In this document: in pieces, positions 1-31,800 of the stretch | Layout of the letters: each line of letters begins with the position of its first letter | Position numbering within the stretch: position 1 is the first letter of the stretch | DNA from: Acidimicrobiales bacterium | GTDB taxonomy: Bacteria; Actinomycetota; Acidimicrobiia; Acidimicrobiales; JACCXE01 | Direction: 5' to 3' | Length of the DNA stretch: 47,577 bases | NCBI GenBank assembly: GCA_035546775.1 | Contig: DASZWD010000038.1 | Coordinates: 1-47,577 of the forward strand | Program-made: the position numbers and the translations under genes | The notes under the pieces: model-generated | The model's input: only the letters and a program-made list of their open reading frames with translations | Databases searched by the model: none | What the model was told of the DNA's origin: nothing

Positions 1-25
1 TATCTAGACAGGAAGACACTAAGAG

Positions 26-2515
<2,490 letters not shown>

Positions 2516-2533
2516 TTCCCAAGTCGTTGGGAA
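2516..2533. repeat. Perfect hairpin 1 after clpB
   Basis: TTCCCAA, a GTCG loop, then TTGGGAA form a perfect 7-bp stem starting on the base after the clpB stop codon. It has no U-run, so it is not a classic intrinsic terminator. It is the first of two near-identical inverted repeats here and could be an RNA stem or an operator. Confidence 0.6.
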
Positions 2534-2550
2534 GTCTTCTAGATCCCAAC

Positions 2551-2566
2551 TCCCAAGTCGTTGGGA
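2551..2566. repeat. Perfect hairpin 2 after clpB
   Basis: TCCCAA, GTCG, TTGGGA repeat the core of the hairpin at 2516-2533. Further copies of TCCCAAC lie at 2544-2550, 2568-2574 and 2590-2596. The earliest possible start codon of the next gene (TTG 2561) lies inside this stem. Confidence 0.6.
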
Positions 2567-3700
2567 ATCCCAACAATCCATCAATTGGATCCCAACGGCT
2601 CCGATGTAGTTGATGTGAACGAGGCACTCGCCACTGCATTTCCGCTCCGTGCAGTCGTCGACAACCTCCCCGACGCGGTGTCGGCGTTTCGCGCCATTCG
2701 TGCCGACGACGGTCTCGTCGTGGACTTCGAGTGGGTGTACGCCAACACCGCGGCGGCAACGGTCGGCTTGGAGCCGAGCGAGCTGTTCGAGGCGTTCCGT
2801 CACGTGATCGACACCGGCGAGGTGTACGTGCATCCGTCGTTGTGGCGCGTGCGCGACCGCGGCGACGGCGTCACCGAGCGGCGGGCCTGCGAAGTGCGGG
2901 TGACCAAGTCCGGCGACATGGTCGTCGTCGTGTCACGCGACGTGACCGAGGATCTCATCGTCGCCGGGTTACGCGAACTCGCCCTCGAGCAGGAGCGGTC
3001 GATCACCCAGCAGCTGCGCGAGCTCGACGCTTCGCGCGCCGCGCTCATCGCGGCCGTCACCCACGACTTCCGCACGCCGCTCACTGGCATCGTCGGGTTG
3101 AGCTGGCTGCTCGACAGCGACTGGGACGACATGGAAGAAGCGACCCGGCGCGAATACGTGCGCGACATCGTCCGCTCGGGCGAGGAGCTCGACCGGCGCA
3201 TCACGTCGGTGCTCGAACACCTCAAGCTCGAGACGGGTCGCTACGAGATCGAACTCGAGATATGCAATGTGGGCGACGAACTCGCCGGTGCCATCGACCG
3301 CATGGGCATCATGCTCGAGGCCTACACGGTGGCGTTCGAGGTGCCCGAGGACGCGCTCGTCGTTGCCGACCGCACGGCGTTCGCCCGCGTCGTCGAGAAC
3401 CTGCTGTCGAACGCCGTCAAGTACGCGCCGCCCGCCACCCGCGTCACCCTGCGCGCCGAACGCGAGGACGACGCCGTGGTCGTCAGCGTCATCGACGAGG
3501 GCCCCGGCATCTCCGAGGAGGATGCGCAGCGCGTCTTCCAGCAATTCGAGCGCCTCGAGTCGGGCCGGCGCGTCGCCCACGGCAACGGGGTGGGTCTCTC
3601 GGCCGTTCGTCAACTCGTCGAGCTGATGGACGGGCGGGTGTGGGTCGAGCCCAACGAGGGCCGCGGCAGCGCCTTCCGCTTTGCCCTTCCCGCGGCGTAA
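2561..3700 (+). CDS. Soluble PAS-domain sensor histidine kinase
   Basis: A two-component sensor kinase without membrane segments, so probably a cytoplasmic sensor. After a PAS-like region (about 28-135) comes a HisKA domain with H-box THDFRTPL, phospho-acceptor His168. The HATPase domain follows, with N-box ENLLSNAVKYAP from 279, G1 DEGPGI from 312 and G2 GNGVGL from 341 (numbered from TTG 2561). All catalytic boxes are intact. The start is uncertain: TTG 2561 lies in a hairpin, and TTG 2585 or GTG 2615 are equally possible and keep the PAS domain. No response regulator is encoded nearby. The next gene, 59 bases downstream, is a second kinase that lacks the phospho-acceptor, so the two may work together. 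Confidence 0.9.
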   Translation: MGIPTIHQLDPNGSDVVDVNEALATAFPLRAVVDNLPDAVSAFRAIRADDGLVVDFEWVYANTAAATVGLEPSELFEAFRHVIDTGEVYVHPSLWRVRDRGDGVTERRACEVRVTKSGDMVVVVSRDVTEDLIVAGLRELALEQERSITQQLRELDASRAALIAAVTHDFRTPLTGIVGLSWLLDSDWDDMEEATRREYVRDIVRSGEELDRRITSVLEHLKLETGRYEIELEICNVGDELAGAIDRMGIMLEAYTVAFEVPEDALVVADRTAFARVVENLLSNAVKYAPPATRVTLRAEREDDAVVVSVIDEGPGISEEDAQRVFQQFERLESGRRVAHGNGVGLSAVRQLVELMDGRVWVEPNEGRGSAFRFALPAA

Positions 3701-3759
3701 CTCGCCCTGATTCGCTACCGTCTTGGGGCGGTCTGGTTTCGCAATACGGGGTGGGGAGA

Positions 3760-6300
3760 ATGCAACTGGGGCGGTCGACGCATGAACCGGCGCGGTATGT
3801 GCCGACGTACATGCTCGCGGGCGTCGTCGGGATCGTCGTGTACTTCCGGCTCACCGATGACGTCGCCAAGGCATTCCTGTACGACGGACTCGTCGCCAGC
3901 GGCGGCGTGGCGGTGCTGTGCGGCATACGCCGCCACCGACCGGCGCGTCCGCAATTGTGGTTGCTGGCGGCGGTCAGCCTGTTCTGCCTCGCGGCCGGCG
4001 ACGTCGCCTTCGACGTTCTGAACCTCGTTCGTCACGTCGACCCCGTGCCGGTGCCGTCGTGGGCCGACGGCTTCTATCTCGCCAGCTATCCGTTCCTGCT
4101 GGCGGCAACGTGGGGTATGGCCCGACGGCGGCTGCCGTCGCGCAAGATCGACACGTTCCTCGACTTCGCTGTGATCTCGCTGGCGGCGGCGATCGGCGTC
4201 GCTGGGCCGCTCGTGACGGCGAACGCCGGCGGCCATCGCTCGGTGGCGGCCGTGCTCGTCGCCACGGCGTATCCGATCGCCGACATCGCCGCCCTCGTGC
4301 CCACGATGTACCTGGCGCTGCACCGCGGGATACGCAACCCCGCGACCGAACTCCTCATCGCCTCGCTGCTGTTCCTCACCGTCGGCGACGTGGTGTTCGC
4401 TTACCTCGGGGCGAATGGCTACGACGTCGGCGCGGGTGTCGAAGTCACGTGGTTGGCCCACGCGGTGTTCCTGGGCGCCGCCGCCTTGCACCCCGCGATG
4501 GTCGCCGTCGCCGACCACCCGGCGCAGCGGCGCACGCGCCTCGAAGCGGTGCGCGCCGCCATCTTCGGCTTGGCGCTGATTCCACTCGTGCTCTCGCCCG
4601 TCTCGGACGCCGCCTTCCCACGCGTGCACTACCTCGAGATGCCGGCGCGCCTGGCGCTGATAATCGTCGTGCTGGCGCGCCTGCTGCGTTTCTCGGAAGA
4701 ATCCGAAGTGGCCCACGACCAGTCCGCTCGCCGCGCCGCCGCGCTGGCGCGAGCGCGCGAGGAGATCGCCCACATCGTGGCCGGCGCGGCCGACGCCATC
4801 ATCGGCGGCGACGCCGACGGGCGCGTCACCGCGTGGAACGCCGGCGCCGAGCGGCTGCTCGGTGTTCCGGCCGACGCGGCGATCGGCGGCAGCATCGCCG
4901 ATTACATCGCCGAGGACATCGGTCCGTGGGCGGAGGCGTTCCGCAGCATGATGCCGGGCGACATCCGCAGCGCGGTGATGCCGGCGATCCGCGGCGACGG
5001 CGTGTCGATCCTCGTCGACGTGCGCCTCGGGTTGGCGACGGCGCGTGACGGGCAGGTGACGGGTTGGGTTGCGATCGCCCGCGACGCGTCCGAAGCACTC
5101 GTCGCGCCCACCGCCGGTGCGCTCGACGCCGCCCAGGTGCTGCACAACGTCGAGACGATCATCGGACGGGTGGTCGACGTGACCGCCGTCGGGCTCGTTG
5201 CTTTCGGGCGCGACGGTGCGGGCTACCACGAGGTCCTCACGGTGGGCGAGCGCGTCGCCATCCACCTCCCCGACGAAGGCGACCTCGGCGATGACGGCCG
5301 TAGCGTCGTGCGCGACCTGCCCACGGTGTTTCGCGCCCGCGTCGACGCCCACGGCGTCGCGCCGGTCGAGCGGTTCTTGAGCCGCACCCGCGCGCGCAAC
5401 GGCGTGGGCGTGACGATCCGCCACGCGACGCTCGGACCGATCGGCCTGCTGTTGATCGGGCTGGCCGACGACGAACTGCCGTCGGAATCCGTCCTCGAGA
5501 CCATCCGCGTGCTCGTCCCCTCGCTGACGCGGGTGGCGCGCAGCCTGATGCTCGACGACGAAGAGGAGACCGCGGCGCGCCGCCGCGCCGACGTCGACTC
5601 GTTGCGCGCCGACTTGTCGGAGTTCGTTCGCAACGACATGCGCAGGCAAGTCGGCGCCATCCGGGGCGCGCTCGACGTGCTGCGCGACGAGAAGGTCTCG
5701 CTTGGCGAGAGTTGGCGGCAGCGATTGCTGGCGAACCTCGACGCCAGCGTGACGTCCCTCGAGCAACTCGTGGGCGACGTAGCGACTGCGGGGCTTGTCG
5801 TCGACGGTCGCTTCCCGTGCGACCTGCGCCTGATCGACAACCCGAGCGCCGTCATTCGCGCCGCGGTCGACGCGGCGCGGTGCTCGATCACCCAACCAAT
5901 CGAGTTGCACCTCGACGAGTTGCCGCCGATCCGCGGTGACGCCGAACGTTTGACCCAGGTCCTCGGTCAGCTGATCTCGAACGCCGCCAAGTTCTCGCCC
6001 CACGATCAGGCGATCGGGGTCTCGGCCGCCGTCGAGAGCGGAACGGGCCGGCTGCGCATCGCGGTGCGCGATCGCGGCATCGGGATCGCGCCCGAGGACC
6101 AACCGCTGATCTTCGGCCGCTTCGCCCGCGTGCACCGCGCCGAAGACCACGAGGTTGCCGGCGCCGGACTCGGGCTCTACATCGCCCAGGGCATCGTGGA
6201 GAGCCACGGCGGGCGCATCTCGGTGACGAGCCGTCCCGGTGACGGTTCGGTGTTCTACGTCGAGTTGCCCGTCGCCGCCGCGGTCGTCGCCGGCCGCTGA
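3760..6300 (+). CDS. Polytopic membrane sensor kinase with degenerate H-box
   Basis: An 846-residue membrane protein. Residues 15-310 hold about ten hydrophobic segments, followed by a linker, a PAS domain (about 334-445, around DGRVTAWNAGAERLLG), a GAF-like stretch, a dimerisation helix pair and a C-terminal HATPase domain. The ATP-binding boxes are intact: N-box with Asn741, G1 DRGIGI from 771, G2 GAGLGLYI from 801. The H-box is not: where kinases read HELRTPL this protein reads NDMRRQV, with Asn625 at the phospho-acceptor place (codon 5632-5634). It can probably bind ATP but cannot autophosphorylate at the usual site. ATG 3760 was chosen; in-frame GTG 3751 is an alternative, and upstream sequence belongs to the previous gene in another frame. 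Confidence 0.88.
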   Translation: MQLGRSTHEPARYVPTYMLAGVVGIVVYFRLTDDVAKAFLYDGLVASGGVAVLCGIRRHRPARPQLWLLAAVSLFCLAAGDVAFDVLNLVRHVDPVPVPSWADGFYLASYPFLLAATWGMARRRLPSRKIDTFLDFAVISLAAAIGVAGPLVTANAGGHRSVAAVLVATAYPIADIAALVPTMYLALHRGIRNPATELLIASLLFLTVGDVVFAYLGANGYDVGAGVEVTWLAHAVFLGAAALHPAMVAVADHPAQRRTRLEAVRAAIFGLALIPLVLSPVSDAAFPRVHYLEMPARLALIIVVLARLLRFSEESEVAHDQSARRAAALARAREEIAHIVAGAADAIIGGDADGRVTAWNAGAERLLGVPADAAIGGSIADYIAEDIGPWAEAFRSMMPGDIRSAVMPAIRGDGVSILVDVRLGLATARDGQVTGWVAIARDASEALVAPTAGALDAAQVLHNVETIIGRVVDVTAVGLVAFGRDGAGYHEVLTVGERVAIHLPDEGDLGDDGRSVVRDLPTVFRARVDAHGVAPVERFLSRTRARNGVGVTIRHATLGPIGLLLIGLADDELPSESVLETIRVLVPSLTRVARSLMLDDEEETAARRRADVDSLRADLSEFVRNDMRRQVGAIRGALDVLRDEKVSLGESWRQRLLANLDASVTSLEQLVGDVATAGLVVDGRFPCDLRLIDNPSAVIRAAVDAARCSITQPIELHLDELPPIRGDAERLTQVLGQLISNAAKFSPHDQAIGVSAAVESGTGRLRIAVRDRGIGIAPEDQPLIFGRFARVHRAEDHEVAGAGLGLYIAQGIVESHGGRISVTSRPGDGSVFYVELPVAAAVVAGR

Positions 6301-6307
6301 GGCGCGC

Positions 6308-7597
6308 CTAGAGGATCTCGAACGCGCCGGCGCGCCCGTCGCGGGGCGTGACGCCGACCACGACGCGGTCGCCCTGGGGCGACACGAAGGTGAGCTGCGC
6401 CTGGCCGCCGAACACGTTGCGGTGCACCAGCCGGCTGTCGCCGAAGCGACCGATGAGATCGGTGGCCGCCGCCGCGGCAGCGACGGGCGGCTTGCCCCCG
6501 ATGGCGACCTCGGCGTCGAGCAACGAGGCGAGCCGGGTTTCGTCGCGTGCCTCGAGCGCGGCGGCGAAGTCGTTTACGTAGGCCTTCACCGGCGTTGCCT
6601 TGCGATGGTTGAACTCGCGCCGGACGCGCCGCTTGGCGCGCGCCCACAGGTTGCGGGCGCGCTCGGCGCCCACGCCGATCGCATCGCGGGCGTCGTAGGC
6701 GACCGTCGCCGGCGTGCGCAGCCGCGCCAGGCGTGCCACTTCGGCTTCGTCGGCGTAGCCGAGCTCGGTGAGCAGACCGCCGGCGGCGCGCGCCACGCTG
6801 CGCTCGGCCAGCGTGTCGCCCTCGCGCTTGCGCACGCCCACCTTCGAGGACCCGAACATGTTCACCGGGGCGCGCCCGAACTCCGCCGCCTCCTCGCACA
6901 GGGTGGCGTCGTAGGGAAGCCGGAAGTGCTCGAAGATCTGCGCGAGGGCCGCCGGCGTATCGCGCACGATGTCCTCATAGCGCAGCTCCAGGTAGGCCAG
7001 GTTCCCGAAGTGGGCGCGAATGTCGCGCACCTCGGCGGCCCACGCCCGCGCCATCACTGCGGGGTGCGTGTAATCGGACGACAGGGTCTTCCAGTTGGCG
7101 CGCTGCGACGACGTGGCGTCGCGCCCGTCGCGGATGATGTGCACGTAACGCGCGTCGGGGTACAGCTCGGCTTGCAGCGCCGACTGCATTTGGTGATTCG
7201 GCGTCTTCTCCAGGACCAAGGTGGCGTCGGGACGCGTGCCGTTGCGCTGAGCCAGGAAAACCGAGTCGGCGAATTGTCGGGCAATCGTGAGCAGTTCGTC
7301 GCGCGACACCCACGTGTGGAGCTGGTTGCCCGAGTCGCCGATGAAGAAGTTCTCGAATGCCGGCGGCAGCACTTCGCAGAACAGGTGCGACTCGCCGCCG
7401 GTCGCGATCAGCGGGTGGGTGAACAGCAGCTGCTGCAGCCACGTGGTGCCGCTGCGGGGCGCGCCGACGACGAAGCCGACGTGCTCGAACAACGGACTCG
7501 CCGAAGGATCGAAGGGTGCCGTGCGTTGCCTCGCCTGGGCGACCGTGTCGTAGATCGACTCGCGGCGCGCCGACAGCCGATCAGGTTCGGTGGACAT
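6308..7597 (-). CDS. PAPS-dependent sulfotransferase with C-terminal extra domain
   Basis: A 429-residue sulfotransferase that should move sulfate from PAPS to a hydroxyl or amine, probably on a surface glycan or glycolipid. The 5'-phosphosulfate loop is GAPRSGTTW at 45-53 and the 3'-phosphate motif is IIRDGRDATSSQ at 154-165; LEKTPNH lies at 129-135 between them. After the catalytic domain (about 40-290) comes an Arg-rich linker and a final segment of about 95 residues that looks like a small NTF2/SnoaL-type fold. The same tail ends the paralog at 38794-39939, and the two align without gaps through the first 50 residues, which supports this ATG. A TAATCT -10 box lies 7 bases upstream. The acceptor is unknown. 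Confidence 0.9.
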   Translation of the reverse strand: MSTEPDRLSARRESIYDTVAQARQRTAPFDPSASPLFEHVGFVVGAPRSGTTWLQQLLFTHPLIATGGESHLFCEVLPPAFENFFIGDSGNQLHTWVSRDELLTIARQFADSVFLAQRNGTRPDATLVLEKTPNHQMQSALQAELYPDARYVHIIRDGRDATSSQRANWKTLSSDYTHPAVMARAWAAEVRDIRAHFGNLAYLELRYEDIVRDTPAALAQIFEHFRLPYDATLCEEAAEFGRAPVNMFGSSKVGVRKREGDTLAERSVARAAGGLLTELGYADEAEVARLARLRTPATVAYDARDAIGVGAERARNLWARAKRRVRREFNHRKATPVKAYVNDFAAALEARDETRLASLLDAEVAIGGKPPVAAAAAATDLIGRFGDSRLVHRNVFGGQAQLTFVSPQGDRVVVGVTPRDGRAGAFEIL

Positions 7598-22073: not shown

Positions 22074-23288
22074 ATGCGCATCTGCCTCATGGCACGCCAG
22101 TTCCCTGTCGTGTCGCAGACCTTCGTCCTCAACCACGCCGCCGGTCTGTTGGCGCGGGGCCATGAGGTGGTCGTCGTGCCGATCATGCGCAGCGACGACG
22201 AGGAGTTCGCCACCGACGAGTTCAACGCCGTCATCGCCGCCACCGCGCCGACCCCGGCGCCTCTCGGTGGGGGCAAGCTCGCCCGGATGGCCGGCGGCGC
22301 GCTACGACTGGCCACCGCCGACGCGCCGTCGCGGCGATTCGCGCTGGCGAAGGGCGACGACTTCCCGCTCCAACGCGTTGGGTTGCGTTTGTTGATCGCG
22401 TCGCGGCTGGCCAACGCCGCTCCCTTCGACGTGCTGCACGCCCACTTCGGTCCCACGGGTGTCGCCGCCGTCGCGTTGCGCGACGCCGGGGTGTTCGACT
22501 CGCCGATCGTGTGCTCGTTTCACGGTTATGACGCCAACGTGATCGCGCAGCAGGTCCCCGGCATTTACGAACCGATGATCGGTCGCGCCCACGTCACCGC
22601 CGGCACGGCGTTCATGCGCACCGTGGTCGAGAACCTCGGCTTCCCGCCGGGCGACGTCACCGTGTGGCCCCAGGGCGTCGACACGGCGCGCTTCGTGCCG
22701 CGCCCGCCGCGGCCGGCCGACGGTACGTTCCGGGCGCTGTCCGTCGCCCGCCTCGTGGACTTCAAAGGCCTCGACATCTCGATTCGCGCCGTCGCCGCGG
22801 CGCGCTCGCGCGTGCCGGGCCTGCGCTACACGATCATCGGCGAAGGTGAACGGCGTGACAACCTCGAGCGCCTGGCGAAGGAACTGGGTGTCGACGACAT
22901 CGTCACCTTTGCCGGCGCCCGCTCGCACGACGAGGTGCTCGCCGCGTTCGCGCACGCCGACGTGTTCCTCATCACCGGCCGGGTCGACTCCGAAGGTCAG
23001 AAAGAGGGCCAGGGCGTGGCGCCGCTCGAAGCAGCCGCCAGCGGCTTGCCCGTCGTCGCGGCGCGAGCCGGTGGGCTCACGGAGGTCGTCGTCGACGGCG
23101 AAACGGGCATCGTCGTCGAGCCCGAGAATCCGGTCGCGGCGGCTGAGGCGCTCGTCCGCTTGGCCGGTGACGCTCCCCTGCGCACGCGGCTCGGGACAGC
23201 CGGGCGGGCGCACGTGGAGGCGAACTTCTCGCACGCACACAGCCTTGACGTGATCGAGGGTGTCTACCGATCCGTCGGCCGTAGATGA
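22074..23288 (+). CDS. Family 4 (GT-B) glycosyltransferase, WcaL/AmsK-like
   Basis: A 404-residue GT-B transferase resembling the colanic acid/amylovoran enzymes WcaL and AmsK: MARQFPVVSQTFVLNH at the start, VLHAHFGPTGVAA, CSFHGYDAN, and a C-terminal domain with SVARLVDFKGLDI and the E-x7-E-type block QKEGQGVAPLEAAASGLPVVA. ATG 22074 follows the acetyltransferase by 4 bases. The last 25 bases overlap the convergent wecB gene. Probably extends the repeat unit; donor unknown. Confidence 0.92.
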   Translation: MRICLMARQFPVVSQTFVLNHAAGLLARGHEVVVVPIMRSDDEEFATDEFNAVIAATAPTPAPLGGGKLARMAGGALRLATADAPSRRFALAKGDDFPLQRVGLRLLIASRLANAAPFDVLHAHFGPTGVAAVALRDAGVFDSPIVCSFHGYDANVIAQQVPGIYEPMIGRAHVTAGTAFMRTVVENLGFPPGDVTVWPQGVDTARFVPRPPRPADGTFRALSVARLVDFKGLDISIRAVAAARSRVPGLRYTIIGEGERRDNLERLAKELGVDDIVTFAGARSHDEVLAAFAHADVFLITGRVDSEGQKEGQGVAPLEAAASGLPVVAARAGGLTEVVVDGETGIVVEPENPVAAAEALVRLAGDAPLRTRLGTAGRAHVEANFSHAHSLDVIEGVYRSVGRR

Positions 23289-24367
23289 CCCGCGGGGCCG
23301 CCGCCGGCGAGCAGTACCTCGGCGATGCGCTCACCGGCGTGCCCGTCCCACCCCGGGATCTCTGACGCCGGTTGGGCGCCGTGGCCAATGGCGCGGCGCA
23401 CCTCGTCGCGAATGCGCTGCGGATCGCGTCCCACAACCACGTTCGTGCCGAGCTCGACGGTGATCGGCCGCTCAGTGTTGTCCCGCAGCGTGATGCAGGC
23501 CACACCCAGCGCGCTCGTCTCTTCCTGCACGCCGCCGGAGTCGGTGAGCACGACGCGCGCTGAAGCCTCGAGGGCGATGAAGTCGAGGTAGCCCTGCGGC
23601 TCGACGAGGGCGATGCCCGGAGCGAGGGCCATCTCCGCCAGGCGGGCGCGTGTGCGCGGGTGCACGGGGAACACCAGCGGCAACTCCTCGGAGATCTCGC
23701 CCAAGGTGTCGACCAGTGTGCGCAACATCTGCGGGTCGTCGACGTTGGCCGGGCGGTGCAGCGTGACGAGGCCGAAGCGGCCGGGGTCCACGCCGACCGC
23801 GTCGATGATCGACCGCTGCTTGGCGCGTTCGACGTTGGCCAACAACGTGTCGATCATCACGTTGCCTACGAGGTGGATCTGGTCGTCGCGGTAGCCCTCG
23901 GCCTTGAGGTTGGCCACGGCGTCGGCAGACGGAGCCAACAGGTAGTCGCTAATACGGTCGGTGACGACGCGGTTGACCTCTTCGGGCATCGTCCAGTCGC
24001 GGCTGCGCAGTCCCGCTTCCACGTGCGCCACCAGCGCGCCCGCTTTTGCGGCGCTGAGCGCGGCGGCGACGGTCGAGTTGACGTCGCCGACGACCACGAC
24101 GACGTCGGCGGGCCACTCTTCCAGCAGGCCCTCTATACCGACGAGCACGCGCGCCGTCGTTTCGGCGTGCGTGCCCGATCCAACGCCAAGGTAGCGGTCG
24201 GGGGCGCGCAGACCGAGCTCGTCGAAGAACACGTCGCTCATCGCCGCGTCGAAGTGCTGGCCGGTGTGCACGAGCAGCGTGTCGGCGCCCCGGGCGTCGA
24301 GCGCGTCGACCACGGGTTTGATCTTCATGAAGTTCGGCCGCGCGCCGGCAACGCAGACAATCCTCAT
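23264..24367 (-). CDS. wecB: UDP-N-acetylglucosamine 2-epimerase (non-hydrolysing)
   Basis: Interconverts UDP-GlcNAc and UDP-ManNAc in the cytoplasm. The 367-residue protein shows VAGARPNFMKIKPV, HTGQHFD, VVGDVNSTVAAALSA, HVEAGLRSRDWTMPEE, VTLHRPANVDD and TDSGGVQEETSALG, the standard WecB/MnaA set. Length and motifs fit the non-hydrolysing type better than the NeuC hydrolase. ATG 24367 starts directly at the conserved N-terminus; the longer frame to 24571 is a shadow. TACGAT ends 9 bases upstream. It probably feeds the WecG-type transferase at 19690. Confidence 0.95.
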   Translation of the reverse strand: MRIVCVAGARPNFMKIKPVVDALDARGADTLLVHTGQHFDAAMSDVFFDELGLRAPDRYLGVGSGTHAETTARVLVGIEGLLEEWPADVVVVVGDVNSTVAAALSAAKAGALVAHVEAGLRSRDWTMPEEVNRVVTDRISDYLLAPSADAVANLKAEGYRDDQIHLVGNVMIDTLLANVERAKQRSIIDAVGVDPGRFGLVTLHRPANVDDPQMLRTLVDTLGEISEELPLVFPVHPRTRARLAEMALAPGIALVEPQGYLDFIALEASARVVLTDSGGVQEETSALGVACITLRDNTERPITVELGTNVVVGRDPQRIRDEVRRAIGHGAQPASEIPGWDGHAGERIAEVLLAGGGPAGHLRPTDR

Positions 24368-24376
24368 GACGATCCG

Positions 24377-24382
24377 ATCGTA
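24377..24382 (-). promoter_or_regulatory. Candidate -10 box for wecB
   Basis: TACGAT on the minus strand ends 9 bases before ATG 24367. It overlaps a perfect 13-bp palindrome, ACGATC-C-GATCGT at 24369-24381, in the 16-base gap after the upstream gene. This suggests wecB can be transcribed on its own as well as by read-through. Confidence 0.3.
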
Positions 24383-24383
24383 C

Positions 24384-25250
24384 TTACGCGACGGGCGGGT
24401 CGAAGGCCCGCTCCAGGATCCGTTGCGCGCGGTAGTCGAGCAGACACGCTCGTAGCGCCCACCACGGACCCACGCGGTAGCCCGCCGCACGCGCCTTGCG
24501 GTACGGGCCGAGCGACAGGCGCGCCTCGGGCCGGCGAAGGCTGCCTTGCAGCGCGCGTACCCGCGGCGCACCGCCGGCGATGCGGCGGACCTTGGCCAAG
24601 AGCGCGGTGGCGCTCGAGCGCGCCGGATGCGTTATCCGGGCGTCCGGCGTGTACACGAGGCCGAAGCCCGCTGCTTTGGCGCGCAGGCAGAAGTCGGCGT
24701 CGCCGCCGGTGCGCAACGTGGAGTCGAACTGCACGCGGGCGAACACATCCCGGCGCACCGCGAGGTTGCAAGTGGCTGCGAACCCGTCGAGCTCGACGTA
24801 GGTCTGCTGGCGCAGGTGGCGGGTGGAGTCGACCCATTCGGCCGGGTTTGGTCGCCGATGCGCGAAGCGGAAGTCGACGCCGCCTCCGCTCAGCGCCGCC
24901 GTGTCCAACGCGGCGACGTGCGCGCGCACCCACCCTGGAGCGACCTCGCAGTCAGTATCGGTGAACAACACGCATGAGGCGGCCGGGTCGAGCGCCGCGA
25001 GGGCGGCGTTGCGCGCCGCGTACGAGCCTTGGTTCGGCACGACCTCCACGACCATGGCCCCCTCGGCGCGCGCGGCCGCGGCTACGCGAGCGTCGCCCCC
25101 GTCCACCGCAACGACGACACGCAGTTGTTCGCGCGGATAATCCGTCGCCCACACCGAACGCAGCGTCGCCCCGATGGCGTCTACTTCGTCGTAGACCGGG
25201 ATGCACACACCGACGATCGGCTCGTCGGCGTCGCTCGTCGGAGGCGGCAC
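24384..25250 (-). CDS. Family 2 glycosyltransferase
   Basis: A GT-A transferase of about 288 residues. It shows VGVCIPVYDEVDAIG, VVAVDGGDARV, YAARNAALAALDP, the metal-binding FTDTDCEVAPGW, LAVRRDVFARV and GGDADFCLRAKAAGFG. No membrane anchor is evident. The start is uncertain: GTG 25250 leaves 58 bases to the divergent neighbour and begins just ahead of the fold; TTG 25301 or ATG 25352 would lengthen it and crowd or overlap that neighbour. Followed by wecB after 16 bases. Confidence 0.87.
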   Translation of the reverse strand: MPPPTSDADEPIVGVCIPVYDEVDAIGATLRSVWATDYPREQLRVVVAVDGGDARVAAAARAEGAMVVEVVPNQGSYAARNAALAALDPAASCVLFTDTDCEVAPGWVRAHVAALDTAALSGGGVDFRFAHRRPNPAEWVDSTRHLRQQTYVELDGFAATCNLAVRRDVFARVQFDSTLRTGGDADFCLRAKAAGFGLVYTPDARITHPARSSATALLAKVRRIAGGAPRVRALQGSLRRPEARLSLGPYRKARAAGYRVGPWWALRACLLDYRAQRILERAFDPPVA

Positions 25251-25308
25251 GCCAAGAGCTTGCCCTACGACGCCACCGTCGGGGGACAGTGCCTGCCACA
25301 ATTCCCGG

Positions 25309-26280
25309 ATGGATTCGGCGCAGGACACGCAGCAACTGCGCGTGTCGGTCATCGTGCGCTGCCTCAACGAGGGCGCGCACATCGGCCGGCTCCTCGACGG
25401 CTTGCTGGAGCAGACGCGTCAACCCGACGAGATCATCATCGTCGACTCGGGTTCGACCGACGACACGCTGGAGGTCGCCGGGCGCTATCCGACCAAGATC
25501 GTCCACATCAAACCCGAGGAGTTCTCCTTCGGTCGTGCGCTGAATCTGGGCTGCGAGGCTGCTTCGGGCGACATCTTGGTGTCGGTCAGCGCCCACGTGT
25601 ATCCGATCTACGACTCGTGGCTGCGCGAGCTCGTGGCGCCGTTCGCGTCCGACGACGTGTCGCTCACCTACGGGCGCCAGCAGGGCGACGAGCGCACGAC
25701 GATCTCCGAACAGCGGATCTTCACGCAGTGGTTTCCCATCGTCAGCGAACAGCGCCAGAGCCACCCGTTCTGCAACAACGCCAACAGTGCCGTGCGGCGG
25801 GAGGTGTGGCAGCGCTACCGCTGGGACGAGTCGCTGACCGGTCTCGAAGATCTCGCGTTGGCGAGGCGCTGCATCGAGGACGGTGGCACGATCGCGTACG
25901 TCGCCACCGCCCCGATCGTTCACGTGCACGAAGAGACTTTTGCCAAGGTGCGCAACCGCTATCGCCGCGAGGCGATCGCCCACAAGGCGATCTACGACGA
26001 GCAGCGCATGGGTCGCTTCGAGGCGATCGGCTTGGCGCTGGCGAACATCGGCGGCGACCTGGCCTTCGCGGCCAAGCACCGCGCGCTGGTGCGCAACGTC
26101 GCCAGCATCATCGGCTTTCGCACGGCGCAGTTCATGGGCAGCTACCAAGGCTTCGCCCAGAGCGGGCCGGTGCATTCGGAACTGAAGCGGCGCTTCTATT
26201 ACCCCGCGGGCCGCATCGGGAAGCGGGAAGAACCGGGCGGCCCGGACGCGCGCCGCATCGAATACGGAGGCGACGCGTGA
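25309..26280 (+). CDS. Family 2 glycosyltransferase, rhamnosyltransferase-like
   Basis: A 323-residue GT-A transferase: VSVIVRCLNEGAHIG, IIVDSGSTDDTLEV, ALNLGCEAASGD, VSAHVYP in place of the more usual DxD wording, FCNNANSAVRREVW and LEDLALARRC. The C-terminus, rich in Tyr and Arg with RFYYPAGRIGKREE, resembles rhamnosyltransferase-type GT2 enzymes. ATG 25309 is the first start that does not run into the divergent gene's core. First gene of a five-gene operon with the NeuA-like enzyme, whose GTG overlaps its stop by 4 bases. Confidence 0.88.
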   Translation: MDSAQDTQQLRVSVIVRCLNEGAHIGRLLDGLLEQTRQPDEIIIVDSGSTDDTLEVAGRYPTKIVHIKPEEFSFGRALNLGCEAASGDILVSVSAHVYPIYDSWLRELVAPFASDDVSLTYGRQQGDERTTISEQRIFTQWFPIVSEQRQSHPFCNNANSAVRREVWQRYRWDESLTGLEDLALARRCIEDGGTIAYVATAPIVHVHEETFAKVRNRYRREAIAHKAIYDEQRMGRFEAIGLALANIGGDLAFAAKHRALVRNVASIIGFRTAQFMGSYQGFAQSGPVHSELKRRFYYPAGRIGKREEPGGPDARRIEYGGDA

Positions 26281-26954
26281 CAACCGTGGTGGGGCTCGTG
26301 CCAATGCGGCACGACAGCGAACGGGTGAAGGGCAAGAACTACCGGCTCCTCGGCGGGCGCCCGCTGTATCACCACGTGGTGGCGGCGCTCCTCGACTCGG
26401 GCGTCGTCGACCAGGTGCTCATCGATACCGACAGCCCCTTCATCGCCGAGGATGCACCCGCGCACTTCGATCGGGTCAGCGTGATTCCGCGGCCCGAGCA
26501 TCTCCTCGGCGGCCACACGCCCATGAACGCCATCCTGCTCCACGACGTGTCGCAGGTCGACGCCGACCTGTACTTGCAGACGCACAGCACGAACCCTTTG
26601 CTGCGGGCTTCCACGATCGCCGCCGCCGTCAAGACGCTCGTCGACCAGCGGCCCGAATACGACTCACTCTTCGGCGTGACGGCGTTGCAGACGCGGCTGT
26701 GGTGGGACGGCGCCCGGGCGGTCAACCACGACCCCGCTGTGCTGCTGCGCACGCAGGACCTGCCACCGATCTACGAGGAGAACAGCAACCTGTACCTGTT
26801 CGATCGGGAGACGCTCGAGCGGCGCGGTAACCGCATCGGCGACCGGCCGCTGCTTTTCCCGATCGACCGCGCCGAGGCGTGGGACATCGACGAGGAGATC
26901 GACTGGACTGTGGTTGAAGCGCTCTACGCGCAGCGGGAACACGCCGGTGAGTGA
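26277..26954 (+). CDS. NeuA-like (acylneuraminate) cytidylyltransferase
   Basis: A 225-residue member of the CMP-NeuAc/CMP-Kdo synthetase family, which activates 2-keto sugar acids with CTP. The N-terminal nucleotide loop is VPMRHDSERVKGKNYR, then LLGGRPLYHHVV, LIDTDSP, LYLQTHSTNPLLR, SLFGVT, IYEENSNLYLF and WDIDEEIDW, which keep the CTP-loop Arg and Lys and the metal-binding Asp. The loop wording (MRHDSERVKGKN) differs from the classic PARGGSKRIPxKN, so the substrate may not be a nonulosonic acid. No NeuB synthase is found here. It is translationally coupled to a 2-hydroxyacid dehydrogenase and an SDR, probably acting on the same substrate. Confidence 0.85.
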   Translation: MTTVVGLVPMRHDSERVKGKNYRLLGGRPLYHHVVAALLDSGVVDQVLIDTDSPFIAEDAPAHFDRVSVIPRPEHLLGGHTPMNAILLHDVSQVDADLYLQTHSTNPLLRASTIAAAVKTLVDQRPEYDSLFGVTALQTRLWWDGARAVNHDPAVLLRTQDLPPIYEENSNLYLFDRETLERRGNRIGDRPLLFPIDRAEAWDIDEEIDWTVVEALYAQREHAGE

Positions 26955-27897
26955 CGCGCCGCGCCTACTGGTGACGTGCCGGCAGATGCAGGTGTCGATG
27001 CCGCTCGTGGAGCACCGGTTGAAAGACGCCGGCGTCGAGTGGGATTGCCCGCCGATCCCCGGTCAGCAGTTCTCCGCCGAGCAACTCATCCCGATTATCG
27101 GCAACTACGACGCCATGATCGCCGGCGACGACTACGTCACCGCCGAGGTGCTGCGCGCCGGACTGCCACGTCTCAAGACCGTGGCCAAGTGGGGCATCGG
27201 CGTCGACGGCATCGACCTCGCCGCCGCCGCCGACCTCGGCATCGCCGTGACGAACACACCGGGGATGTTCGACGACGAAGTCGCCGACGTCGCCTTCGGC
27301 TACGTGCTCAGCCTGTTCCGTGGCCTGCACCAGATCGACCGGGCGGTGCGCGCCGGCAACTGGACCAAGATCGAAGGTCACACGCCGCGGGGCCACATCC
27401 TCGGCATCGTCGGCCTCGGTGGCACCGGCCGCGCGATGGCAGTGCGGGGCCAGGCCGTCGGCTTCGAGGTCATCGGCAGCGAGCCGGTCGCGGCCAACGC
27501 GGAGCAGGCGGCAGCCATGGGGGTGCGCGTCACATCGGTGGATGACGTCTTCTCCGAGTCCGATGTCGTGTCGCTGCACTGCCCCCTGACGCCCGAGACC
27601 CGACGCCTCGTCTCGGCGCAGATGCTGGCGCGGATGAAGCCCGGCGCCTACTTGGTGAACGTTGCCCGCGGTCCAGTGGTCGACGAGGCGGCGCTGATCG
27701 CCGCGCTCGAGCGGGGGCACCTCGCCGGCGCGGCGCTCGACGTGTTCGAGGTCGAACCGTTGCCCGCCGACAGCCCGCTGCGCCGCTTCGACAACGTCAT
27801 CCTCGGGGCCCACAACGGATCGAACACCGCCGAAGCGGTGGCCCGAACCAGCCGGCAGGCCGTCCACAACGCGCTGACCAGCCTCGGCCTCGCGTGA
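26947..27897 (+). CDS. D-2-hydroxyacid dehydrogenase (phosphoglycerate dehydrogenase-like)
   Basis: A 316-residue NAD-dependent dehydrogenase of the D-isomer family, which oxidises a D-2-hydroxy acid or reduces the 2-keto acid. The Rossmann motif GIVGLGGTG is at 153-161, and the catalytic residues are Arg241 (in NVARGPVVDE), Glu270 (in FEVEPLP) and His289 (in LGAHNGS). It lacks the ACT regulatory domain of SerA, and its neighbours are not serine genes. GTG 26947 overlaps the upstream stop by 8 bases and the next GTG overlaps its own stop by 4, so the three are tightly coupled. It probably makes or consumes the acid handled by the NeuA-like enzyme. Confidence 0.9.
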   Translation: MSDAPRLLVTCRQMQVSMPLVEHRLKDAGVEWDCPPIPGQQFSAEQLIPIIGNYDAMIAGDDYVTAEVLRAGLPRLKTVAKWGIGVDGIDLAAAADLGIAVTNTPGMFDDEVADVAFGYVLSLFRGLHQIDRAVRAGNWTKIEGHTPRGHILGIVGLGGTGRAMAVRGQAVGFEVIGSEPVAANAEQAAAMGVRVTSVDDVFSESDVVSLHCPLTPETRRLVSAQMLARMKPGAYLVNVARGPVVDEAALIAALERGHLAGAALDVFEVEPLPADSPLRRFDNVILGAHNGSNTAEAVARTSRQAVHNALTSLGLA

Positions 27898-28601
27898 AGA
27901 CCGTCGTCGTCACCGGCGCCCGCGGTGGTATCGGCGCGGCGGTCATCGAGCTGTTCAACGCGTCGGGGTGGCGCACGATCGGCGTCGACCGCTCGGCGCC
28001 CGGTGAGGATCACTCGGCGCGGTATCTGCAGAGCGACATCGCCGACGCCGACGGTCTCACGGCGCTGAGCGACGCGCTGCGCGAGGAAGACCGCATCGAC
28101 GCGCTGGTCAACAACGCAGCCGTCATGATGGACAAGGACTTCGCCGACCTTTCGGTGGCGGACTGGGACGCCACCATGAACACCAACGTGCGGCCGGCGT
28201 TCGTGCTCACGCAGGCGCTGCTGCCCCAACTCGCCGCGGCGATCGGCGGCGTCGTCAACGTGGCGTCGGTGCACGCCATCGCCACCTCGCGCGGCGTAGC
28301 GGCCTACGCGGCGAGCAAAGGCGCACTCGTCGCCTTCACCCGCGCGACGTCGCTCGACCTGGCGTCGTTCGGTGTGCGGGTCAACGCCGTGTGCCCCGGG
28401 GCGACCGACACGCCGATGCTGCGCGGTGACCCCGCGGTGCGCCAGGCGCTCGTCGACCGCACGCCGCTGCGTCGCATCGCCGACCCCGTCGAAATCGCGC
28501 AGGCCGTGCTGTTCCTCGCCGACAGCGAACGATCGGGGTTCATCACCGGCCAGACGCTCGTCGTCGACGGCGGTGCCACGTCGCGGCTCAGCACCGAGTA
28601 G
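27894..28601 (+). CDS. Short-chain dehydrogenase/reductase
   Basis: A 235-residue classical SDR. TGARGGIG at 7-14 binds the NAD(P) and NNAA at 73-76 supports the fold. The catalytic residues are Ser125, Tyr138 and Lys142 in YAASK, and the protein closes with the usual GFITGQTLVVDGG. Arg10 and Arg33 might favour NADPH, but this is a guess. The third coupled gene of the NeuA-like/dehydrogenase pair; an oxidoreductase beside a NeuA homologue recalls the PtmA-PtmB pair of the legionaminic acid pathway. Substrate unknown. Confidence 0.92.
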   Translation: MKTVVVTGARGGIGAAVIELFNASGWRTIGVDRSAPGEDHSARYLQSDIADADGLTALSDALREEDRIDALVNNAAVMMDKDFADLSVADWDATMNTNVRPAFVLTQALLPQLAAAIGGVVNVASVHAIATSRGVAAYAASKGALVAFTRATSLDLASFGVRVNAVCPGATDTPMLRGDPAVRQALVDRTPLRRIADPVEIAQAVLFLADSERSGFITGQTLVVDGGATSRLSTE

Positions 28602-28605
28602 CCCG

Positions 28606-29706
28606 TTGCCGGGCACGACCGACCTCGTTGTCCTTCTCGGCACGCCGTGGTCGCGGTTGGCGTGGCAGAACACCCGCTGGCGCAGCGTCTTGCAGCAATG
28701 GGCTGGCGACGCACGCTTCACGACGGTCAGCGTCGTGGACTTTCCGTCGATGTCGCTGCGCAACCTCGTTCGCACCCGCGCCGAGCGCATCGACTCGTGG
28801 GACGACCGGGTCACCGCCCTCGCCGGGCGTGTGCCTGTCTACCGTGCGCCGTCGCCGCTCGACGCGCTGGCGTGGCGGATGACGGGCGCGGCGCTGACGG
28901 GCGCGTTGCCGGCGCAGGGCACGCGCCGAGTGGTGGTCGCAGCCACGCCGTTGTGGGCTCCCGTCTTGCGGTATCTCGACGCCGATCGTCGCGGGTTCGA
29001 CGCCGTCGACGATTGGCGGGCACTCCCGGTGGCGGCGCGTGTCGGCGGTCACGTCCTGCGTGGCTATCGCGCGGCGGCACGCGCCGACGCGGTGACGACC
29101 GTGTCGCCGGAGCTGGCCGACCGCCTGCGGGCCGACTTCGGCATCGACGGGCGCCCCGTGCCCAACGGCGTCGACGTGGAGGCGTACACCGCGCCGCTGG
29201 GCGACGCACCGCCCGGACTACCCGAGGGGTCCTTTGCCGTGTACCTGGGCGTGGTGCAGCAGCGCGTCGACGTCGGGCTCCTCGCCGCCGCCCAGCAGGT
29301 CCTGCCCGTCGTCGTCGCCGGGCCGGCCGACGACGCCACGGCGCGGCAACTGCGTGACCTTGGCATCACGTGGCTCGGCCCCGTCGGCCCTGACGTCGTG
29401 CCCGCCCTGTTGCGGCGTGCCGCCGTCGGCCTGCTGCCGCATCACGTCAACGCGCTCACCACCAGCATGAGTCCGATGAAGGTGCTCGAGTACTTGGCGG
29501 CGGGTTTGCCTGTCGCGGCGACGCCGGTTCCCTTGACGGTCGCGTCCGATCGGATCGTGGTGGCGAGCGCTGCCGGCTACGGCGAAGCCGTGCGTGACGC
29601 GCTGGCGCACGGGCGACTGGACGCGCCCGATCCCGCGGTGCGTGCTTTCGGGTGGAACAGGGTGGCGGAAGCGCTCTTCTCCGCCCACGTCAACGGCGAG
29701 CGTTAG
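28606..29706 (+). CDS. GT-B glycosyltransferase (group 1 type)
   Basis: A 366-residue GT-B protein. The N-terminus, DLVVLLGTPWSRLAWQNTRW, is a variant of the GT4 start. Later marks are DAVDDWRALP, AVTTVSPELADRL, PNGVDVEAY and the nucleotide-binding block SPMKVLEYLAAGLPVAATPVP, where Glu and its following helix match the GT4 motif. TTG 28606 is the only start that keeps the conserved N-terminus, and it lies 4 bases after the SDR stop. It may transfer the sugar made by the upstream triad. Its stop shares 4 bases (TTAG) with the convergent gene. Confidence 0.85.
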   Translation: MPGTTDLVVLLGTPWSRLAWQNTRWRSVLQQWAGDARFTTVSVVDFPSMSLRNLVRTRAERIDSWDDRVTALAGRVPVYRAPSPLDALAWRMTGAALTGALPAQGTRRVVVAATPLWAPVLRYLDADRRGFDAVDDWRALPVAARVGGHVLRGYRAAARADAVTTVSPELADRLRADFGIDGRPVPNGVDVEAYTAPLGDAPPGLPEGSFAVYLGVVQQRVDVGLLAAAQQVLPVVVAGPADDATARQLRDLGITWLGPVGPDVVPALLRRAAVGLLPHHVNALTTSMSPMKVLEYLAAGLPVAATPVPLTVASDRIVVASAAGYGEAVRDALAHGRLDAPDPAVRAFGWNRVAEALFSAHVNGER

Positions 29707-30944
29707 TCGAAGCGGGGCGCGCCCCGAGCGATCAGCGCGGGGATGTGGCTGCGCGTCACGCCGTGCACGTGCTTGCCGGCCGCTTCGCCGACCGCCAGGA
29801 ACTCGTCGAGATAGCGCAGATGCCGGTCGTAGTAGTTCGTGTAACTGGTGGTGCGGAAGAACGCAGGGTGAGCAGCGAACACGTCGTTCATGAGCTCCTG
29901 GCTGTATTGCAGCTGCGCGTTGTGCTTCCAGAAGTAGTTCTCCGTTTGCACCCGGCCGTCGCAGCCGCCGACGTCGACTTCGTCGACGAGCGCGAAGGCC
30001 ACCGGCAGCATGAGGTAGGTGAGCACGTTGCCCGACATCACGACCTTGGCGTTCGTCTCCGTCGGCCACGCCCACTCGGTTCCGGTGTCGTCGAGGGTCA
30101 CGAGCCGATCGCGCACGTCGGGCATGTGGGCCAGCAGCAAGCCGGCATAACGCGCCGGTATCACCACGAGCGCGTCGCAGACGGCCAGCGCGCCGCGCAG
30201 GTCGGCGCGGAACGCCGCGGCGTAGCGGCTCGGTCCGAAGTGGAAGACCGGGTCGGCAAAACAGATGACGTCGGGGCGCAGCTTCGTGATGAGGTCGATG
30301 TCGCGCACGGCCGAGTTGCACACGATGCGCACGTCGGCGGTGACTCGCGCGGGATCGAGTTCGCTGGCCGACGGCCCGGTGCCGAGCGCCAGGGCGCGCC
30401 CGCCGGTGACGCGGCGCGCCAACAGGCGCGGGACGGTCGAGAGTGGATCGGGTGGCGGTTCGGGCGCCAACGCGGCGCGGAGACGGAGATAACCGAGCTC
30501 GGACGTGTACGCGAAGACCGGATCGGCGATGCTCATTGATCGAATGTGGGGCAGCACGCGCGCTACCGAGCCGACGGCGATGCGGTGGAGCACGTGGCGT
30601 ACCCCGCGCCCAGTCGGCAACGGACCCGACGCGATGCGGTCGCGCTGCACGAGGTCGGGATCCATGTGGGGCGCGTCGGCGGGCGAGAACGCCATGTGGT
30701 CGGCGCCGGCGATGTAGATCGGTACCGTCGCGTCCGCCAGGTACCAGTTGATGCGTGCCACCAGGTCGGCGAGTTCGGCGGCGTCGCGCGGTGCCGGTTC
30801 GAAGACCAACGCGTCGATGTTCGCCCGGTGCTCGGGCACGGCCAGACGCTTGAACCCGGCGTGGAAATACTTGCGCAGCTTCGTGTCGAGCACGTTCGGC
30901 TTGCCGAACGCCGCCGCCTGACCCTGCTGCGTACGGTCAGCCAC
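29703..30944 (-). CDS. MptE-like (DUF115) domain protein
   Basis: A 413-residue protein. The central region, GGRALALGTGPSASELD then VRIVCNSAVRDIDLI, LRPDVICFADPVFHFGPS and VVIPARYAG, has the glycine-rich loop and the 'Pro-Asp...Asp-Pro' layout of the MptE-like/DUF115 fold. That fold is shared by archaeal hydroxymethylpterin diphosphokinase and by Maf-type flagellin glycosyltransferases, which transfer nonulosonic acids. The C-terminus (TTSYTNYYDRHLRYLDEF) may belong to the same catalytic unit. GTG 30944 overlaps the upstream stop by 8 bases. The assignment is by eye; a sialyltransferase-like or GT role in this locus is more likely than pterin metabolism. Confidence 0.65.
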   Translation of the reverse strand: MADRTQQGQAAAFGKPNVLDTKLRKYFHAGFKRLAVPEHRANIDALVFEPAPRDAAELADLVARINWYLADATVPIYIAGADHMAFSPADAPHMDPDLVQRDRIASGPLPTGRGVRHVLHRIAVGSVARVLPHIRSMSIADPVFAYTSELGYLRLRAALAPEPPPDPLSTVPRLLARRVTGGRALALGTGPSASELDPARVTADVRIVCNSAVRDIDLITKLRPDVICFADPVFHFGPSRYAAAFRADLRGALAVCDALVVIPARYAGLLLAHMPDVRDRLVTLDDTGTEWAWPTETNAKVVMSGNVLTYLMLPVAFALVDEVDVGGCDGRVQTENYFWKHNAQLQYSQELMNDVFAAHPAFFRTTSYTNYYDRHLRYLDEFLAVGEAAGKHVHGVTRSHIPALIARGAPRFD

Positions 30945-31800
30945 GCATGTTCTCCCGGAACCAACGAACGGGCGAGCGCGCCAGTGCGTGCAGCCGGGCC
31001 GTTTGCTCGGTCCGATTGGCGCGCTTGAGTTCGGCGGCGAACGGGCCGGGCCCGGCGGTGACATAGGCCCACAGCATCACCGCCGACCCGACGCCGACGG
31101 GACGCATCGCGCTGTAACGGACGAGTCGCAGGGCGAAGTAGGCCGGGTGATAACCCGTCCAGCGGGCGACGACGCCGCCGCGGCGGCGGCCGCGCAGCAC
31201 GCCCTCGCTCGAGCCGGTGCGCCGGGCGCTGGTCGCGATGGCCTCGGGCACGACGCGGATCTCGAGGCCGGCCGCCCGAATGGCGACCTCGTCGAGAACG
31301 TCCCAGCCCAGCGCAATCGGCACGCCCGCCGCGACATCCCACGCGGCGCGGTTGTAGGCGCGCAGGCCGCCGCGGACGTGGTGGGGCTGCGAGCGATCCG
31401 CAACGTCGGCGATCACACCGCCGATCACGCCGACGTCGGGCGCCACCTTCGTGAGCGCGGCGAAGTGATCCGGGGCGAGGACCAGGTCGGCGTCGATCTT
31501 CAGCACGCGCTCGGCGTCGGGTAGCCGTTCGAGGCCGGCCGCCACCCCGTCGGCGAAGGCGACCCGTTCGGACGCGCCCAGCAGGCCGCCGGTGTTCGTG
31601 CGCCGCAGCACGTGCACGGGAAACGGCATTGACTGCGGGTCGACGCACTCGGCGGTGCCGTCGTCGCTGCCGTCGTCGACAATCACCCACAATCCGATCG
31701 TTTGGACTGTTTGGGCGGCGAGCGAGGCCGCCAGTTGCGGCAGCCGATCGCGTTCGTTGCGCGCCGGCGTCACCAGCAGCCAGGGCGCGCTGATCGGCAT
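30937..31800 (-). CDS. Family 2 glycosyltransferase
   Basis: A 287-residue GT-A enzyme with LLVTPARNERDRLPQL, VIVDDGSDDGT, LKIDADLVLAP (metal-binding DAD), and GWDVLDEVAIRAAGLEI. A hydrophobic stretch around VGSAVMLWAYVTAGPG may touch the membrane. ATG 31800 has AGGG 8 bases upstream on its strand and leaves 31 bases to the divergent gene. It is coupled to the MptE-like gene downstream by an 8-base overlap. Confidence 0.88.
   Translation of the reverse strand: MPISAPWLLVTPARNERDRLPQLAASLAAQTVQTIGLWVIVDDGSDDGTAECVDPQSMPFPVHVLRRTNTGGLLGASERVAFADGVAAGLERLPDAERVLKIDADLVLAPDHFAALTKVAPDVGVIGGVIADVADRSQPHHVRGGLRAYNRAAWDVAAGVPIALGWDVLDEVAIRAAGLEIRVVPEAIATSARRTGSSEGVLRGRRRGGVVARWTGYHPAYFALRLVRYSAMRPVGVGSAVMLWAYVTAGPGPFAAELKRANRTEQTARLHALARSPVRWFRENMRG

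Follow-up and report, generated by a model that had tools for sequence, protein, structure and literature searches.

A conserved NeuA-like cytidylyltransferase with two dehydrogenases as the putative core of a NeuB-independent route to a CMP-activated sugar acid

We analyzed a 47,577-nucleotide stretch of DNA from an Acidimicrobiales bacterium (GenBank assembly GCA_035546775.1, contig DASZWD010000038.1), referred to here in its entirety as the window, in which a gene for a NeuA-like cytidylyltransferase is followed by genes for a D-2-hydroxyacid dehydrogenase (HDH) and a short-chain dehydrogenase/reductase (SDR). We propose, with a probability of roughly 0.55, that this triad is the core of a dedicated pathway, working without NeuB, whose product is a 2-keto sugar acid (an ulosonic acid) that is activated with CMP, carries no N-acyl group and serves a surface glycan. 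By their sequences, the three genes form a conserved unit that goes with a family 2 glycosyltransferase (GT2) gene and often with an MptE-like one, and the NeuA-like protein combines altered sugar-binding residues with retained metal- and nucleotide-binding residues. The well-known CMP-activated sugar acids, namely, sialic, legionaminic and pseudaminic acids and Kdo, depend on phosphoenolpyruvate (PEP)-dependent synthases such as NeuB or KdsA.

The window is GC-rich, and since longest-open-reading-frame calls were unsuitable, gene boundaries were set by hand. The run reads as follows:

25201 to 26280, + strand: GT2 glycosyltransferase (PF00535, E = 1.9e-22), which opens the run and overlaps the NeuA-like gene by 4 bases
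26277 to 26954, + strand: NeuA-like cytidylyltransferase, GTG start (PF02348, E = 3.4e-34)
26947 to 27897, + strand: D-2-hydroxyacid dehydrogenase (HDH), GTG start (PF02826, E = 5e-60; PF00389, E = 3e-20)
27894 to 28601, + strand: SDR oxidoreductase, GTG start (PF13561, E = 2.8e-50; PF00106)
28606 to 29706, + strand: GT4-like glycosyltransferase (PF13692, E = 1.4e-9), directly 3' of the SDR gene

Direct reading of the sequence bore out the gene positions and the overlaps of 8 bases (NeuA-like/HDH) and 4 bases (HDH/SDR) given by an earlier, sequence-only reading of this DNA, and the Pfam matches agreed with its flanking glycosyltransferases, GT2 upstream and GT4-like downstream. With a possible start 5 bases past the SDR stop, the GT4-like gene makes the run one of five codirectional genes and is probably on the same transcript as the SDR gene. 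None of the NeuA-like, HDH and SDR proteins reached a curated NCBIfam cut-off.

Conservation of the gene unit

Among 396 genomes sampled first, all from the window's phylum, only NeuA homologues of about 30% identity turned up. As a control, 19 ordinary NeuA loci from this phylum had NeuB within 1.5 kb in 15 cases and HDH in none. Plasmids yielded five NeuA homologues (44 to 55% identity), all of them with HDH as the next gene and three preceded by an overlapping GT2 gene. An alignment of the window protein with these five homologues served as the query for a scan of 84,980 species genomes, and the locus counts given here rest on the best 80 (54 to 67% identical) of at least 565 confirmed relatives. 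HDH lay downstream of the NeuA-like gene at 61 of the 77 loci with room for it, and HDH plus SDR did so at 49 of 71. An MptE-like (PF01973) gene was present at 35 of 61 related loci and stood together with NeuA, HDH and SDR at 32 of these 61, while a GT2 gene of the same cluster (c3) as that of the window occupied position -1 or -2 at 37 of 75. The arrangement of the triad is thus not due to chance. The sequence-only reading would have been undermined had the three families rarely co-occurred elsewhere, and the neighborhood search found them together often.

The common order at related loci is GT2, in some cases a PF04199 cyclase-family gene, NeuA, HDH, SDR, MptE-like; the cyclase-family gene lies just upstream in 15 to 16 loci. 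According to record titles, this order occurs, whole or in parts, in Cyanobacteriota, Chloroflexota, Bacteroidota, Myxococcota, Planctomycetota and one Methanosarcinales archaeon; Nitrospirota and Pseudomonadota have the NeuA-HDH pair at least. Many of these loci come from metagenome-assembled genomes, and single phylum labels may be wrong; two loci with near-identical genes (L073 and L085) carry different ones. No relatives were detected in viral contigs by a single-protein scan or in phages by tblastn. The closest relative of the window triad among the best 80 of the at least 565 relatives (NeuA 66% identical) comes from a metagenome-assembled genome titled Bifidobacterium breve, a label that looks doubtful.

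The association persists where the genes are scattered. Eleven genomes, mostly of Bacteroidota, with a NeuA of this clade lacking an adjoining HDH were searched whole, and 10 of them encoded the HDH elsewhere; with the module profile it scored 370 to 505 bits and left the next homologue far behind. SDR adjoined this unlinked HDH in seven of these genomes, and an MptE-like gene followed HDH-SDR in four Saprospiraceae-type genomes; the one MptE-like protein checked among these was 50 to 55% identical to those of the cyanobacterial modules. Profile searches of 295 evenly drawn Bacteroidia genomes detected the NeuA clade in 10 and HDH in 5, all of them within those 10 (hypergeometric P = 1.4e-8, not corrected for kinship), and SDR adjoined HDH in all five. 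Since HDH, SDR and NeuA co-occur even when unlinked, we conclude that the pathway is a unit even where its genes are scattered. Together with the conserved order across many phyla, this supports the earlier view of the three enzymes as one functional unit.

In L042, L060, L064, L094 and L108, from Saprospiraceae and further members of the Bacteroidota, the NeuA-like gene lies by itself among housekeeping genes, with an RdgB-like gene upstream in three, and HDH-SDR, often with MptE-like, occupies another conserved place.

The NeuA-like enzyme and its possible substrate

The 77 members of the NeuA-like clade are set apart by a branch supported at 98/90. The nucleotide loop that the sequence-only reading had pointed out, MRHDSERVKGKN, is indeed present in the window protein, and K20 and N21 of the KN loop are kept. 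We compared the clade with the residues described for the CMP-Neu5Ac synthetase of Neisseria meningitidis (PMC2901514). In the alignment, meningococcal Q104 is replaced by H103, R165 by T159 and F192, in the N-acetyl pocket, by R186, each in all 77 members, and R140 is invariant as well. Among 35 other homologues, the R165 position holds Arg in 28. Kept in all 77 members are the metal-binding Asp pair D203 and D205 (meningococcal D209/D211) and N169 (N175), and Y173 (Y179) is kept in 75.

An AlphaFold2 model of the protein, for which, as for the other models, plasmid-derived rows were left out of the input alignments, had a mean pLDDT (predicted local distance difference test) of 94.7. The solved structures that it matched best were the CMP-Kdn synthetase 9t4z (Z = 26.7, 24% identity) and, on equal terms, the Neisseria enzyme. 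There is no N-acetyl group in Kdn. R186 is common to the NeuA-like protein and the CMP-Kdn synthetase. Given the F192 and R165 replacements and the Kdn enzyme as the nearest fold, the substrate would lack an N-acyl group at that position and its acid group would be held differently. This match and the shared R186 also speak for another reading, in which the NeuA-like enzyme activates Kdn or Kdo from an unrecognized or lyase-type aldolase and HDH and SDR modify the octulosonate or nonulosonate; we consider it improbable, given the low identity to the Kdn enzyme, whose carboxylate Arg is not kept, and the fact that neither KdsA nor NeuB is a direct partner of the triad, although no genome-wide search covered KdsA or NanA-type lyases.

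Compared with the NeuA synthetases 9t4z, 1eyr and 1qwj, the protein shares the fold (Z = 25 to 27, root mean square deviation 1.8 to 2.5), the N-terminal Arg/Ser/KN loop, the D-x-D motif and the pocket Asn/Tyr; it differs in its identity of 20 to 24%, in the three invariant replacements, in a K142→Q exchange found in most clade members, and in its linkage to HDH without a NeuB partner. Features of a CMP-Neu5Ac, legionaminic acid or pseudaminic acid synthetase are therefore found in the fold, KN loop and D-x-D motif but not in the carboxylate Arg, Gln104 or a linked NeuB. The top-scoring NCBIfam model was PseF (TIGR03584), which all 42 clade members scanned matched; the window protein, however, scored 72.4 bits, far below the cut-off of 205.7, and PseF falls on the other side of the supported branch. 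The altered pocket is best read as fitting a CMP-activated sugar acid other than Neu5Ac, legionaminic or pseudaminic acid, and a CMP-activated 2-keto sugar acid is the likely product class. To this extent the CMP-activated acid of the sequence-only reading stands, with CTP use and the identity of the acid as putative elements.

Loss of the Arg that contacts the carboxylate of Neu5Ac would also suit a different acceptor, another hydroxy acid or a phosphonate, giving a CMP-phosphodiester that decorates glycans. CTP activation of phosphonates is reported to be common in surface decoration (PMC6697681). We nevertheless regard such an acceptor as highly improbable, as the protein retains both the D-x-D metal site and the Asn/Tyr pair through which NeuA-family enzymes contact the ulosonic sugar; moreover, reading of the loci, which was no systematic search, brought no PEP mutase to light.

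No NeuB (PF03102) was found in the window, in line with the sequence-only reading. The only match in the genome, the finding that might have turned the NeuA-like enzyme into an ordinary synthetase, lies on another contig (C28, positions 1 to 7179; L025) in a separate nonulosonic acid cluster, whose translations we read as a PseB-like dehydratase, a PseC-like aminotransferase, a GSA-type aminotransferase, a Gfo/Idh oxidoreductase, an SpsF-type cytidylyltransferase and the NeuB-type synthase. Because SpsF stands beside it in this cluster, this NeuB has an activator of its own. The presence of NeuB and PseB/PseC-like enzymes in the genome would allow the NeuA-like protein to be a second activator for the C28 product, with HDH and SDR serving an unrelated sugar. 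We think this very unlikely in view of the SpsF in that cluster, of the replaced carboxylate Arg and F192 positions throughout the clade, and of many Chloroflexota loci in which an SDR, NeuB and a separate NeuA (c12) form a distinct group beside the module. The same loci bear on the parallel with PtmA/PtmB of the legionaminic acid pathway that had been drawn earlier: the pairing of an SDR with a NeuA homologue near glycosyltransferases is only a superficial likeness, whereas a set of that kind is separate from the module in Chloroflexota and has no counterpart of HDH.

The two dehydrogenases and a proposed route

HDH carries both Pfam domains of the D-2-hydroxyacid dehydrogenase superfamily, intact catalytic residues (R241, E270 and H289) and, in its AlphaFold2 model (pLDDT 94.6), the fold of this family. 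The SDR is of the NAD type (D32) with an intact N98-S125-Y138-K142 tetrad, so that both enzymes are as complete as the sequence-only reading had held. Two HDH motifs, G60-D61-D62 and K81-W82-G83, are kept in 57 to 59 of 59 relatives and are absent from those paralogues of the same genome that can be aligned there. R54 and R75 of human phosphoglycerate dehydrogenase (PGDH), its phosphate-holding Arg residues, correspond to G60 and K81 in HDH, next to the near-invariant D61, D62 and W82. HDH thus resembles D-3-phosphoglycerate dehydrogenase, glyoxylate/hydroxypyruvate reductases and 2-ketogluconate reductase in fold and R-E-H residues (36% identity to 1wwk) but lacks the phosphate-site Arg residues, has conserved GDD, KWG and HN motifs, and stays below every NCBIfam equivalog cut-off. 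Acidic and aromatic residues at this site may fit a polyhydroxy acid.

A role for HDH as a PGDH in serine synthesis was ruled out by these motifs and by a separate SerA-like gene of the same genome (L119), whose product has the classic PGDH motifs and both phosphate-site Arg residues.

The SDR shares the NAD-type Rossmann fold and N-S-Y-K tetrad of classical SDRs (aldose 1-dehydrogenase, 2,3-butanediol dehydrogenase and FabG types) and differs from them in a conserved S-V-H-A loop and an LSTE C-terminal tail, present in most of 24 aligned relatives. Its nearest NCBIfam models include glucose/aldose dehydrogenases, and it falls below the cut-off of all of them; since these models are broad, the SDR reaction is inferred.

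The simplest route that these enzymes suggest, which we favor as a tentative proposal although it is less likely than not in this exact form, would run from aldose through aldonate and 2-ulosonate to CMP-ulosonate. The SDR would oxidize an aldose at C-1 to the aldonolactone, which would open spontaneously or, where one is present, through a PF04199 cyclase-family or SMP-30 lactonase; an SMP-30 gene lies near two Roseobacter copies of the module. HDH would then oxidize the aldonate at C-2, the NeuA-like enzyme would join the resulting 2-ulosonate to CMP from CTP, and its transfer to the glycan would fall to a neighboring glycosyltransferase, which elsewhere is probably the MptE-like enzyme. Escherichia coli K3, with a 4-deoxy-2-hexulosonic acid, is cited as an earlier example of a capsule that contains a hexulosonic acid (PMC10433991).

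It is possible, though we would not call it probable, that the module stands for a widespread undescribed class of CMP-sugar donors, such as a CMP-hexulosonate, which two NAD dehydrogenases would derive from ordinary sugars with no NeuB/KdsA aldol step and which a dedicated MptE-like transferase would use in many bacterial phyla and at least one archaeon. Full-text searches of open-access papers turned up no account of the gene combination or of CMP-hexulosonates; most subscription papers lay outside this search, and "undescribed" is accordingly provisional.

Partner genes, an aldolase variant and significance

Two further genes of the window lie near the run:

29703 to 31064, - strand: neighbor labeled MptE-like by the sequence-only reading, family unconfirmed
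23264 to 24508, - strand: nonhydrolyzing UDP-GlcNAc 2-epimerase (WecB), exceeding its NCBIfam cut-off, in the same glycan region

The MptE-like label could not be upheld: the protein had no Pfam match at E < 1, PF01973 included, and showed only weak, partial similarity to a profile of module-associated MptE-like proteins (4.8 bits; hhalign probability 0.6%). It bears a G-T-G-P-S motif and could be distantly related to MptE-like or GT42-type transferases. With neither a cyclase nor a confirmed MptE-like gene in the window, the conserved candidate transferase there is the GT2 protein.

The other five of the ten Bacteroidia genomes with NeuA (L183 to L187) have this gene together with an HpcH/HpaI aldolase or the genes that usually accompany it, namely, those for an NAD epimerase, a PF04199 cyclase, a HAD phosphatase and another HDH; at least one of the five also has MptE-like. 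Similar loci were found at L048:8303-13866 and in Acuticoccus (L027:8210-12662). NeuA enzymes of this group are thus found repeatedly in the company of HDH, cyclase and MptE-like proteins and without NeuB. The existence of this variant keeps alive an aldol route, in which HDH would turn a hydroxy acid into hydroxypyruvate or a similar keto acid. An aldolase encoded elsewhere would then combine this keto acid with an aldehyde, and tailoring by the SDR would come before or after activation. The variant run NeuA-aldolase-epimerase-cyclase-phosphatase-HDH-MptE and the Acuticoccus order aldolase-NeuA-HDH-HAD favor it; however, the aldolase was seen beside NeuA only in variant loci and in no triad locus, and the variant HDH is of another subtype in several members, with RCG in place of KWG. 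We therefore judge an aldol route unlikely, if still to be reckoned with.

Several points weigh against the NeuB-independent ulosonate pathway proposed here. With Thr in place of meningococcal R165, a C-1 carboxylate would need another partner, for which R140 and R186 are candidates, or the substrate would bind differently. This HDH subtype is missing from five of the ten Bacteroidia genomes that have a NeuA of the group, and the replacement of the SDR by the aldolase in the variant could mean that HDH has another role. The window's own genome, finally, has neither a cyclase homologue (PF04199 profile) nor a confirmed MptE-like gene, which is weak evidence.

If the proposal is true, a conserved NeuA-like enzyme working with two dehydrogenases and no PEP-dependent synthase would extend the surface chemistry of bacteria by a new route and, probably, by a sugar not yet described. 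Many database entries now labeled "acylneuraminate cytidylyltransferase" and "phosphoglycerate dehydrogenase" would be corrected as well. The module comprises three to four small proteins and could be tested in one assay.

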